Positions 50,656 through 54,612 of a DNA stretch of 64,000 nucleotides are shown piece after piece. Under the pieces are notes generated by a model, which was given only the letters and a program-made list of their open reading frames with translations, had not been told where the DNA came from and did no database searches. The first letter of the stretch is position 1; every line of letters starts with the position of its first letter. The position numbers were made by a program, and so were the translations under genes. Location: NCBI GenBank assembly GCA_022824465.1, contig JAJDZV010000008.1:186001-250000 (forward strand), given 5' to 3'. The DNA comes from Anaerolineae bacterium. GTDB lineage: Bacteria; Chloroflexota; Anaerolineae; Aggregatilineales; Phototrophicaceae.

Positions 50656-51513
50656 ATGGCGATTCTCATTGACAAGAGCGCCCGGGTGGTGGTGCAGGGA
50701 ATAACGGGCAGGCAAGGCGGCTTTCACGCCAAGTTGATGATGGAGTACGGCACGGATGTGGTCGGCGGCGTCACGCCAGGGAAAGGCGGCGAATGGTTCG
50801 AGGGCAAGCCTGTCTTTGACACGATGCGTCGAGCGGTCGAGACGACGAACGCCGATGTCAGTTTGGTGACAGTGCCGGCGCGCTTCGCCGCCGATGCCAT
50901 CATGGAAGCGGCTGACGCTGGCATCCGCCTGGTAATCTGCCTTACCGAGCACATCCCGGTCGCCGACATGATGAAGGTGGTCGCCTTTTGTCGCCGGCGC
51001 GGCGCCCGTCTGCTGGGACCCAACTGTCCGGGCGTCATGACGCCGGGACAAGCCAAGGTCGGCATCATCCCGGCGATGGTCGCCAGTGCGGGCAATGTCG
51101 GGGTGGTTTCCAAGAGCGGGACGCTTACGTATGAAGTTGGCTTCGCCATGAAGAATGCCGGCATTGGCATATCGACGATCGTCGGGATCGGCGGCGACCC
51201 GGTAATCGGCACGACATTCGTCGAGGTGCTGGAGATGTTTGAGGACGATCCGGAAACTGAGAAGGTCGCGCTGCTCGGCGAGATCGGCGGCAGCGCCGAA
51301 ATTGTCGCGGCTGATTATATAAAGAACGCCATGACCAAGCCGGTGGCGGCCTTCATCGCTGGCCGCAGCGCGCCGCCGGGCAAACGCATGGGGCACGCTG
51401 GCGCAATCGTCGATGGGGGAGAAGGCTCCGCGGAAGAGAAGATCGTGGCGCTGGAAGCGGCCGGCGCGCGCGTCGCCGCCAACCCCGAAGAGATACCCGG
51501 TTTGCTCGCCTAG
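50656..51513 (+). CDS. sucD: Succinyl-CoA synthetase alpha subunit
   Basis: 285 residues. CoA-binding start [19 protein letters not shown] and the phosphorylated histidine in [18 protein letters not shown] are intact. Forms the enzyme with SucC; the two genes are separated by one base. Converges with the thymidine kinase gene. Confidence 0.97.
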
Positions 51514-51526
51514 TTAGTCAATTGCG

Positions 51527-52111
51527 CTAGTCGCTATTCGCGGGCAGAATCTGATGATGGCGCCGGCATCGCGCCTCATAAGACTCTTGGGCGCCGACCA
51601 GAATGATGGGATCGTCGTAAGCGGCCGGCTCGCCATCGACCAGACGCTGCGTACGGCTGGCAGGCCCGCCGCAGACGACGCAAATTGCGTGCAGCTTTAC
51701 CACTTCTTCCGCGATGCTTAGCAGGTCTGGCATAGCGCCGAATGGTTCGCCGCGAAAGTCGGTATCCAAGCCAGCGATGATCACGCGCAAGTTCAGTTCG
51801 TCGACCAGGCGTTGCACGACATCAATGATCTTCGCGTCAAAGAATTGCGCTTCGTCGATGGCGACTACGGTTGTCTCGCCGTTGGCAAGATCAAAAATGT
51901 CTGCGGCCGCGCCAACCGCCACCGCTTCGACTGATTGTCCGGTGTGGCTGGTGATGTTCTGAATGCCATAGCGATCGTCGATCTTGGGCTTGAAGACCTT
52001 GACCCTTTGCCGCGCGATAATGGCGCGCCGCACTCGGCGGATGAGTTCCTCGGTCTTGCCACAGAACATGCTGCCGCAGATGACTTCAATCCGGCCCGAC
52101 TCGTGCTTCAT
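51527..52111 (-). CDS. tdk: Thymidine kinase (TK1 type)
   Basis: Phosphorylates thymidine for salvage. 194 residues: P-loop [18 protein letters not shown], and the zinc-binding CVVCGG with a later C-RRHH are all present. It is the last gene of the ribosomal-protein group on the minus strand; a 127-base spacer separates it from the bL31 fusion gene. Confidence 0.95.
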
Positions 52112-52238
52112 TTGCGCGCTCCTGCAGGTACAGAGTCGCTTGCCGCCCGGGAGCGGCGCATGGATGCAAAAGGGCCGAGTAGCGCAGACGTACAGTCATA
52201 GTTAAGGCATGACTAACGGGAGTAGCGCGCCAGTGGCG

Positions 52239-52697
52239 TTAGCTGGTCAGTTCGTAGCCTCGGCTGCGGAGCGTCTTCTTCATGTCGCTGACGACCTTGC
52301 GCCCGATCCCCTGTATTGCCAGGATGCTGTTTTCGTCGTCTTCATCGCCGAGGCGATCAAGCACATCGCCCACAAGCTTGATGCCATTATCTTCCAGGAT
52401 ACTGACGTATCGAACGCCGATTTCCAATTCGGTAATTGGCAGGTCGAGCGGTGTGCGTTCTTCTGTGTTGCGCTGAAGCGTGGAGCGGATCTCGTCGCGC
52501 TGCTGCAAGCGCTTCATGAACTTATCGACTCGACCCTCAGTGTCGACAATGCGCTGTTCGCCGGTGTAAAAGGGATGGCAATTAGAGCAGATTTCCACAG
52601 CCAGCGATTCTACGGTGGAGCCGGTCGTCCAGGTCGTGCCACAGGTCATGCAACGCACGGGCGTTTGATGCCATGCGGGATGAATCCCCTGTTTCAT
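52239..52697 (-). CDS. rpmE: Ribosomal protein bL31 fused to an RNAP-alpha-CTD-like domain
   Basis: 152 residues, twice the usual bL31 length. Residues 1-65 are standard zinc-form bL31: [11 protein letters not shown]16-x2-C19, C37-x2-C40, [24 protein letters not shown] charged linker (66-83) leads to residues 85-150, which read [25 protein letters not shown], and [23 protein letters not shown]. This lines up with the RNA polymerase alpha C-terminal domain (the ELELSVR, IxxVGDL, NLGKKSLxEIKxxLxxxGLxL pattern) through its helix-hairpin-helix. Fused in one frame, with no sign of frameshift. bL31 sits outside the ribosome; the added domain could bind RNA, DNA or a partner. Family call sure, role of tail open. 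Confidence 0.9.
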
Positions 52698-52755
52698 AGT
52701 AGCCTCCGCGCATTTGCGGCTCTCGCGAGTACCGCAAATGACTAGTTCGATCTAT

Positions 52756-53043
52756 TCACTCGATGGATTGTCCGGTTTTTGCGTGGGTAGCGTAAACCGA
52801 GATACGCTTTTGGCCTCGGCGACCGCGCATCTTTTCGAAAGTCACGAAACCGGGGCGGGTGGCGAAGATGGTGTAGTCTTTGCCCATGCCGACGCCTTCG
52901 CCGGGGTGAAACTTGCTGCCGCGCTGCCGCACGATGATATTGCCCGCGATCACAAACTCACCGCCATAGTTCTTCACGCCCAAGCGTTTGGAGTTGCTAT
53001 CACGCCCGTTGCTGGATGAACCGCCGCCTTTTTTGTGAGCCAT
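52756..53043 (-). CDS. rpmA: Ribosomal protein bL27
   Basis: 95 residues beginning [28 protein letters not shown], the typical bL27 start whose N-terminus reaches the peptidyl-transferase centre. No leader peptide of the type cleaved in Firmicutes. The body ([23 protein letters not shown]) is normal; the C-terminal part is somewhat extended. Follows rplU by 17 bases. Confidence 0.97.
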
Positions 53044-53060
53044 AGCTGATTGCCTCCGCT

Positions 53061-53372
53061 CTAGACTGAGATGCCGTCAATGCGCAGCCGCGTGTGATAC
53101 TGGCGATGCCCTTGCTTGCGGCGATAACTGGTGCGTTGACGGTACTTGTAGACAATGATCTTCTTTCCCCGAAACTGCTCGACCACGGTCGCGCTCACGG
53201 TCGCGCCGTCAATCGTCGGCTGCCCAATCGTTGCGACGTCGCCGTTGACGACCAAGAGCACATCCGAGATGTCAAGCGAGTCGCCGACCTCGTTGGGCAA
53301 GCGGTCGACGTCAATCGTCGCGCCTACTTCAGCCCGGTATTGCTTGCCGCCGCTACGGATGATTGCGTACAT
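53061..53372 (-). CDS. rplU: Ribosomal protein bL21
   Basis: 103 residues: [46 protein letters not shown]. First gene of rplU-rpmA-rpmE. A leader of about 110 bases lies between the promoter (53489-53518) and the ATG and could carry an autoregulatory structure; I could not define it. Confidence 0.97.
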
Positions 53373-53488
53373 AAGGATTCTCCCAACCTTCGCTTGTCAT
53401 CTCCGCGCCGGAGGCCGATCAGGGCTCCGCAAACGGGGAAAATTGGTCATACAACAAAAGCCCCACAATTGTCGGCAGGGCAAGTGGC

Positions 53489-53518
53489 ATTGTAAATGAC
53501 GTTTCCAATGCCAGTCAA
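53489..53518 (-). promoter_or_regulatory. Promoter of rplU-rpmA-rpmE
   Basis: Minus strand: TTGACT (53518-53513), 18 bases, TACAAT (53494-53489). Followed by a leader of about 110 bases. Confidence 0.65.
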
Positions 53519-53541
53519 GCGCGAATATGACGACTGGGCGC

Positions 53542-54612
53542 TCAGGCGACGAACATGGCATCGCCAAACGTATAGAAGCGATATTCGCAGTCTTTCGCAG
53601 TTTCGTACGCTTGCAGGAGATGGTCGCGCCCGGCAAATGCGCTGAGCATCATAAGCAAGGTGGAGCGCGGCAGGTGAAAGTTGGTGATCAGCGCGTCAAC
53701 CACGCGCCAGCGGTAGCCGGGGGTGATGAATAGCTCGGTGTTCGCTTCAAACGGGATCACCGGCGGTTGGGGGTTGCAGGCGCGACGAGCAGCAGGATTG
53801 GCAGGATCGCCGCCCTGGCTGAGGATTCCGGCGGTCTCCAAGGCGCGCGCGGAGGTCGTGCCAACTGCGATGATCCGGCGCCCGGTCGCCTTGGCATGGT
53901 TGATCAGGTCCGCGTTTTGCGCATCCAGACGCGCGAATTCGCTGTGAATGGCGTGCTCGTGTATGTATTCGACCGCGACCGGCTGAAATGTATCAAGCCC
54001 GATATGCAGGGTGCAGCAAGCCAGCTTGATCCCCTTGTTTTCCAGTTTCTGAAGAAGTCCAGGCGTGAAATGCAGACCAGCGGTGGGCGCCGCCGCCGAT
54101 CCTTCGCGGTCGCAGTAGACCGTTTGGTATCGTTCGTTGTCTTTGATCGCGGAGCGGATATAGGGTGGCAACGGCATTTCGCCCAGCTTCGAAAGCGTTT
54201 GACGGTCCAGCGCCCGGCTGAACTCGATAATGCGCTTCGCTCCGTCAAGCATCGCTACGACGCGACACTCCAGATCGCTTCCGTGGAAAGCCAGCAGCGC
54301 GCCACTTTTGACGTTCCTTCCGCCTACGAGAGCCTGCCAGCGCCGGGCATCGAGTTGCTTCAGCAGCAAGATCTCGACTGCTCCGCCAGTGTTGCGCTTA
54401 TGAGCGCGCATCCGCGCCGGGATCACTCGGGTGTTGTTGAGCGCCAGCACATCGCCTGGCGAGAGCATCGCCTCAATGTCGGTAAATGCGTGGTGGGAGA
54501 TTGCGCCGCTCTCTCGGTCGAGGCGCATCAAACGAGAGGCGTCGCGCTGCTCAAGCGGCTCCTGCGCGATGAATTGTGGCGGCAGATCGTAGTCAAAGTC
54601 GGCGATGTTCAT
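53542..54612 (-). CDS. queA: S-adenosylmethionine:tRNA ribosyltransferase-isomerase QueA
   Basis: Queuosine pathway: transfers ribosyl from SAM to preQ1 on tRNA. 356 residues. [34 protein letters not shown] and [17 protein letters not shown] are intact. Its ATG overlaps the ruvB stop (ATGA), as in many bacteria where ruvB and queA are neighbours. Confidence 0.97.

Follow-up and report, generated by a model that had tools for sequence, protein, structure and literature searches.

Why does a ribosomal protein carry a domain that resembles the C-terminal domain of the RNA polymerase alpha subunit (alpha-CTD)? The question is raised by the rpmE gene of an Anaerolineae bacterium, which lies in the stretch of 64,000 nucleotides that we analysed (the window; contig JAJDZV010000008.1). 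Few bacterial proteins are as conserved as the core ribosomal proteins, and it is unusual for one of them to gain a folded foreign domain. In this gene the two parts form a single open frame on the minus strand (52697-52239, 152 aa; Table 1). The original prediction took the first part for a zinc-form bL31 and the tail for an alpha-CTD-like domain, and both identifications held up in profile searches. The PF01197 match (101.2 bits, cut-off 27) spans residues 1-64 and covers the whole bL31 core, and the four zinc ligands of the CxxC...CxxC pattern (C16, C19, C37 and C40) are invariant in 26 of 26 aligned fusions. PF03118 (RNA_pol_A_CTD) matches residues 78-144 with 27.0 bits and still gives 26.8 bits when the tail is scanned alone, above its cut-off of 23.8. 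NCBIfam rpoA models hit residues 61-151, the best with 30.8 bits, far under the whole-protein cut-off of 277. When 16 RpoA CTDs from the class are made into a profile, the window tail reaches 45.0 bits and the best of 1820 shuffled tails 9.5. We assign the tail to the alpha-CTD fold. The chain has no alpha N-terminal domain, its N-terminal part being bL31, and is not an RNA polymerase alpha subunit; those sources that give names to the fusion proteins label them L31.

Table 1. Features of the window and carriers of the alpha-CTD-like domain elsewhere in the class; plain coordinates are window positions, L numbers denote other loci.
Feature	Position	Strand	Remarks
rpmE, bL31 with C-terminal alpha-CTD-like domain	52239..52697	-	152 aa, complete including stop
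bL31 core, residues 1-64	52506..52697	-	PF01197, 101.2 bits
Linker, residues 65-84	52446..52505	-	least constrained part, median dN/dS 0.185
Alpha-CTD-like helix-hairpin-helix (HhH) domain, residues 85-150	52248..52445	-	Pfam match 78-144
Leader hairpin of rpmE, 30 nt	52711..52740	-	8-bp outer and 3-bp inner stem; covariation, 12 sequences
rpmA, bL27, upstream neighbour	52756..53043	-	PF01016, 125.5 bits
rplU, bL21 without tail in the window genome	53061..53372	-	103 aa; PF00829, 129.5 bits, residues 1-101
tdk, thymidine kinase, downstream neighbour	51527..52111	-	PF00265, 179.6 bits
RpoC insert	L188 ORF 2440-6000, residues 728-787	+	also L233-L243
NusA with alpha-CTD-like domain C-terminal to KH domains	L183:1619-3667	-	also L138-L141, L186, L187, L189-L194, L227-L232
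bS16 with alpha-CTD-like tail	L179:678-1262; L195:544-1041; L181:267-788	-; +; +	also L196, L205-L210, L226
bL21 with alpha-CTD-like tail	L177:777-1313; L178:601-1179; L062:2993-3661	+; +; +	also L199, L200

The fusion was predicted to be genuine rather than the product of a frameshift in related genomes, and this has stood: the same architecture is uninterrupted at 36 loci of 35-85% identity, which argues against a frameshift between two genes. It is also present in the single-contig genome assemblies G027, G213 and G253. An assembly or annotation artefact joining two genes can be dismissed with near certainty, since a single ORF is read at 36 loci, in 95 or more genomes and in assemblies that consist of one contig.

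The genome from which the window derives (3.27 Mb in 14 contigs, 87% complete) yielded no second bL31 above the cut-off. A conserved alpha-CTD-like HhH domain sits on the C-terminus of the sole bL31 found in this genome. Across the genome the tail profile matches bL31 and RpoA alone, the next row having an E value of 0.38. The separate rpoA encodes the alpha N-terminal domains and its own CTD (74.7 bits), as had been left to be checked and as a Pfam scan of the ORF also showed, and the notion that the tail substitutes for a lost rpoA CTD is rejected on that ground. No significant tail match was found in the first 661 residues of the 779-aa NusA frame of this genome; the best stretch, at -0.7 bits, is at the position where relatives carry the domain. 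By eye, residues ~470-496 of this NusA (L257:1393-3375, plus strand) look like a decayed first half of the domain, at the same non-significant score. If that reading is real, the NusA of the window lineage lost the domain while bL31 has it.

Among other Chloroflexota, where the same fusion was to be looked for, it recurs within the class. With a profile of 26 fusions, bL31 matches that extend into the tail turned up in at least 95 of the 298 class genomes searched, spread over 19 of 59 families, the figure of 95 being a lower bound that counts hand-transcribed rows reaching profile position 135 or beyond at an E value of 4.5e-39 or stronger. All 21 genomes of the window's order in this sample have such a match. 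In a sample of 331 genomes of the phylum the long match occurs in 30, all of them from the same class; the other classes gave 42 matches at E <= 1e-33, none of which passes position 122 of 157, and the farthest crosses a stop. At this threshold 254 of the 331 genomes have no match, and any more divergent fusions in other classes would fall outside it. The 36 full-length loci are among the best 80 loci listed, and their titles name Chloroflexi/Chloroflexota or Anaerolineae groups (MAGs). A search with the tail region returned 134 proteins, and each of the 120 listed is either a bL31 fusion or a fragment containing the same domains; since its candidates were length-limited, this search is uninformative on longer carriers, which came from the genome profile searches. 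Twenty bL31 proteins without the domain are 68-192 aa long, and the longest of them have low-complexity tails. Among ten close sequences (45 pairs, 40-44 with finite dS) the median dN/dS is highest in the linker (0.185), lower in the tail (0.131; finite dS in 44 of 45 pairs) and lowest in the core (0.025), so the tail is constrained, less so than the ribosomal core.

The window gene order is rplU, rpmA, rpmE, tdk. The order rplU-rpmA-rpmE is kept in 34 of the 36 fusion loci, and tdk was found in 31; of the two exceptions to the order, L057 is cut by a contig end and for L058 a separate bL27 was not listed. Just 5' of the rpmE ribosome-binding site (GGAGG, 52703-52707) lies a hairpin that is a candidate leader element controlling bL31. 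Over 12 sequences (the window and 11 close relatives, L036-L046) 96.9% of its cells are paired, and both sides have changed in 5 of its 11 pairs. None of 500 shuffles scores as high on four of five measures, and the best slid version has 44.3% of cells paired, a comparison in which the structure is favoured because it was drawn from the same sequences. The fifth measure, further pair types, goes the opposite way (7 observed, shuffled mean 8.5, all 500 shuffles at least equal). Of the 11 loci L036-L046, 9 have an exact 8-bp inverted repeat upstream of rpmE, and one was also read in the window. None of the 25 other fusion loci has such a repeat; among 8 fusion-free loci there is 1, differing in sequence, and 98 of 7200 random 60-mers contain one. 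A search of positions 51400-53800 against Rfam gave nothing at the gathering threshold. The tail could itself be regulatory, if bL31 controlled its own synthesis by using the alpha-CTD-like domain to bind the leader or promoter of its gene (autogenous control). This would suit both the place of the covarying hairpin in the window and its 11 relatives and the role of bL31 as an autogenous repressor in gamma-proteobacteria (PMC10931766). The same report assigns the repressor function of E. coli bL31 to an N-terminal segment, and the repeat is missing from all 25 of the other tail-carrying loci tested; we consider autogenous control through the tail very improbable.

What, then, has the tail kept of alpha-CTD? 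In E. coli alpha numbering, the window tail has R96, G130 and K134 at the places of R265, N294 and K298. Two are thus kept of the three residues that contact the DNA minor groove (PMC5101437). Over the 62 bL31 tails R265 is kept in 52, N268 in 20, G296 in all 62, K298 in 56 and S299 in 29; N294 is found in none, being Gly in 62 of 62. The 16 RpoA CTDs, in contrast, have all six residues in 16 of 16, and the bL31 tails therefore differ from them by the uniform Gly and by changes at N268 and S299 in over half. The other fused domains resemble the bL31 tails: R265, N294 and K298 are present in 10, 0 and 10 of ten bS16 tails, in 5, 0 and 5 of five bL21 tails, and in 13, 2 and 13 of fourteen NusA domains. 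The fused family thus mostly retains the basic HhH hairpin without the full promoter-reading set. Since N294 is missing from nearly all tails, canonical promoter recognition is unlikely, and the view of the tail as a full promoter-binding alpha-CTD has to be given up (N294 absent in 62 of 62 and N268 kept in 20 of 62 bL31 tails). Net charge averages -1.0 in bL31 tails and -0.6 in RpoA CTDs, too close for charge to separate them.

The domain is not confined to bL31. One domain family in the class is found on bL31, bS16, bL21 and NusA, and as an insert in RpoC. The tail profile was run at E <= 0.001 against 62 genomes chosen by hand so that every family of the class had at least one; family f29 was represented by G087, chosen because the fusion is present there. 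The 127 resulting rows comprise 62 RpoA and 65 others in 62 proteins, namely 20 bL31, 16 NusA (17 rows), 12 RpoC, 5 bS16, 2 bL21 and 7 other proteins (9 rows). Carriers were identified from Pfam matches, from blastp comparison with NusA and RpoC or by direct reading of the ORF, and RpoA rows mostly from ORF length. A ribosomal protein, NusA or RpoC has the domain in 42 of the 62 genomes. In family f9 (28 genomes searched) bL31 is short and the domain is at the end of NusA instead.

In RpoC (beta') the insert is in the same place in 12 genomes of 11 families, at ORF residues ~730-810 (528-587 in the shorter L242); PF03118 gives 25.8, 21.4 and 20.0 bits in the three inserts scanned, two of them below the cut-off of 23.8. 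Genomes with this insert have no tail match on NusA, bL31, bS16 or bL21, and there is no overlap among the 62 between the 12 RpoC-insert genomes and the 30 with a ribosomal-protein or NusA tail, so the two are not combined there. Fisher's exact p is 0.00014 for 0 of 12 against 30 of 50 genomes, and 0.17 for bL31 against bS16/bL21 carriers, values that we do not take as a test because families are not independent. Eleven NusA proteins were scanned: PF03118 gives 22.8-52.9 bits in the ten with a single copy, where L191 (22.8) is below the cut-off, and L183 has two copies of the domain. The NusA proteins of L231 and L232 match the tail profile weakly (21.4 and 16.1 bits). For bS16 the PF03118 scores are 60.1 (L179), 44.9 (L195), 41.7 (L181) and 39.1 bits (L226), and the tail of L196 (genome G037) has no PF03118 match at E <= 0.001; linkers hold acidic repeats in L226 and alanine-rich repeats in L196. 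bS16 fusions occur in at least 9 of the 298 class genomes, to which G037 and G116 from that sample are to be added. The bL21 tails score 51.6 (L178), 44.0 (L177) and 26.3 bits (L062), and bL21 fusions occur in at least 4 of the 298 genomes, plus L062, a fifth row (G186) stopping before the tail. Among the 120 listed of 1031 homologues of the bL21 fusion, 83 combine PF00829 with PF03118; two of those 83 have an organism in the source name (Anaerolineae bacterium and Chloroflexi bacterium).

Among the 7 remaining carriers in the survey are an HTH protein and sigma-region-4 proteins that have the domain in several copies. Several alpha-CTD-like copies per protein are seen in L184:2-1681 (-), L185:3-1538 (-), L244:64-4185 (-) and L245:230-2854 (+), and in L184 and L185 a sigma-70 region 4 match follows the copies. 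Two adjoining proteins, L182:3261-6014 (+) and L182:6248-7201 (+), both have the domain N-terminally; the former has an N_BRCA1_IG match at its end and a sub-threshold GH18 match, the latter a hydrophobic stretch that by eye resembles a membrane segment. In L180:619-1137 (+), by eye a putative HTH-type regulator, the domain is C-terminal.

Such a range of carriers could mean that the tail is a mobile, weakly sticky HhH module binding DNA, RNA or the nucleoid, which in this class is easily copied to the C-termini of proteins and brings a mild, unspecific gain, for instance by keeping ribosomes near the nucleoid. The HTH, sigma-region-4 and other carriers are in line with this, as are the local copying seen in G087 (below) and the fact that the tails mostly retain R265 and K298 but have lost residues on which alpha-CTD specificity depends. 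A merely sticky module is harder to reconcile with the fact that 55 of the 62 non-RpoA carriers in the 62 genomes are proteins of the expression machinery (bL31, NusA, RpoC, bS16 or bL21), and with a bL31 version that spans 19 families and, among close relatives of the window, shows selection. We regard it as decidedly unlikely.

The main bL31 tail may derive from RpoA or from NusA. A tree of 77 rows and 71 columns was built from all 46 other tails and from alternate members of the 62 distinct bL31 tails (31, with that of the window among them); the program warned that many of its forks are not resolvable. RpoA forms one group (90). Twenty-eight of the 31 bL31 tails fall in another (97), together with the RpoC insert and the bL21 tail of L062. 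A single origin of all bL31 tails is not rejected (AU p 0.109). L062, from the Chloroflexi isolate CFX15, has the tail on both bL21 and bL31 of one rplU-rpmA-rpmE operon. In G087 a nusA with two domain copies divergently adjoins rplU-rpmA-rpmE-tdk, and 53 of 64 residues are identical between the bL31 tail and the second NusA copy; the two kinds of row cluster with an SH-aLRT value of 93 (the program's star is set at 95). That family is represented by three genomes. The other two, G059 and G024, both have a NusA-length carrier; bL31 is unfused in G059 and was not found in G024, which is 79% complete. On this tree of 71 columns, the G087 case is best read as a local copy from NusA to bL31, independent of the main bL31 clade, and the identity of 53 in 64 is evidence that copying took place between a transcription and a translation gene.

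The position of bL31 on the ribosome offers a further clue. Its C-terminal part touches uS13, uS14, uS19 and h42 of the 30S head and holds the head, while both subunit association and the formation of 100S particles are influenced by its final residues (PMC7530986); from these contacts, the tail should start at the 30S head. In an AlphaFold2 model of the fusion, residues 56-81 are predicted to form one long helix, and the core-to-tail spacing is 36-41 residues in 55 of the 61 fusions measured and 44-49 in the other six. In bS16 the linker is predicted to be disordered (pLDDT below 50 at residues 99-130; tail block means 77-89) and the distance from motif to tail varies from 37 to 198 residues. 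A disordered linker of variable length is what one would expect of a tether, whereas the near-fixed distance in bL31 fits docking just as well. The tail may therefore be a ribosomal docking domain without a role in transcription, which packs on 16S rRNA or on uS13, uS14 or uS19 and reinforces or tunes the B1 bridge between the subunits, with effects on subunit association, head rotation or 100S dimers. Apart from the constant spacing, the predicted continuous helix would run into the domain, the GxGRK hairpin of the HhH is retained, and the known part played by the bL31 C-terminus in the 30S head, subunit association and 100S points the same way. The model, at a pTM of only 0.36, does not fix the placement of the tail relative to the core, however, and docking at one site leaves unexplained why the domain is also on NusA, on RpoC and on bS16 with its variable, predicted disordered linkers. 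We find docking somewhat unlikely.

We tentatively prefer another mechanism, judging from position and fusion partners and at a confidence somewhat short of even: the tail ties the ribosome to the transcription complex. The HhH domain would be displayed at the 30S head on a short helical arm and could serve as a contact module between the ribosome and RNA polymerase, NusA or their nucleic acid. Such a contact might supplement or replace coupling of the NusG type, and would be made through the retained basic face of the HhH (R96, G132 and K134) and/or protein surfaces rather than by promoter recognition of the UP-element kind. We favour a contact between ribosome and transcription because of the set of fusion partners, the location of bL31 and two lines of structural work. 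In an E. coli early expressome RNA polymerase lies atop the 30S head (PMC12820379), and in M. pneumoniae the C-terminal extension of NusA touches ribosomal proteins (PMC8116511).

Several points stand against such a tether. N294 is lost in all bL31 tails and N268 in most, and the mean net charge of -1.0 gives no sign of strong nucleic-acid binding. bS16, bL21 and bL31 would place a tail at different sites of the ribosome, and 7 of the 62 non-RpoA carriers lie outside this machinery. NusA of the window genome has no significant match, and RpoC-insert and tail genomes are disjoint. In E. coli, moreover, coupling in the early expressome depends on NusG, and the 30S showed no NusA density there (PMC12820379). 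In a broader form, the alpha-CTD-derived family might be a transcription-translation adaptor that some families have on RpoC and others on NusA, bL31, bS16 or bL21, and that was copied across (NusA to bL31 in G087), giving a ribosome-polymerase or ribosome-nucleoid contact independent of NusG-uS10. This wider proposal strikes us as rather unlikely.

The fusion can be set beside several known arrangements. Compared with RNA polymerase alpha (PF03118), the domain sits on bL31 and not on an alpha N-terminal domain. The protein shares with ordinary zinc-form bL31 (PF01197) the full core, the four Cys ligands and the rplU-rpmA-rpmE(-tdk) order, and differs by an added folded domain of ~66 residues. 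Additional C-terminal parts on ribosomal proteins have a precedent in bL21 with a C-terminal HhH (NCBIfam PRK12278, NF008915/NF008916); PRK12278 proteins are presumably bL21/HhH fusions, and proteins with PF00829 and PF14520 are among the listed homologues (e.g. P0216 and P0235). PRK12278-like tails are listed with HHH_5 and not PF03118, whereas the bL21 tails of the class match PF03118 at 26-52 bits, and the two bL21 fusions of the class that we tested against NF008915/NF008916 fail their cut-offs of 281 and 193 bits, reaching at most 98.8 (L178) and 116 (L062). In E. coli the C-terminal extension of NusA consists of AR1/AR2. NusA with a C-terminal extension (E. coli; M. pneumoniae, PMC8116511) is likewise a transcription factor coupled to the ribosome with an accessory C-terminal part, and in many families of the class the NusA extension is the same alpha-CTD-like domain. 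The bL31 fusion differs in being on the ribosome side, in a genome whose NusA has no significant match.

A description of the bL31/alpha-CTD-like fusion was not found in the openly licensed literature (PMC full text; titles and starts of abstracts), in agreement with the original prediction. The fusion is therefore a lineage-specific extension of a ribosomal protein, of a known kind and with unusual repetition, for which HhH tails on bL21 are a precedent with a different domain. In one class, a single type of domain, best known from RNA polymerase, is found on three ribosomal proteins, on NusA and in RpoC. If the tether holds true, the existence of relatives with and without the tail makes it directly testable whether coupling is selected. 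Should the domain link both machines, the coupling architecture of these bacteria would differ from the models known from E. coli and Mycoplasma.
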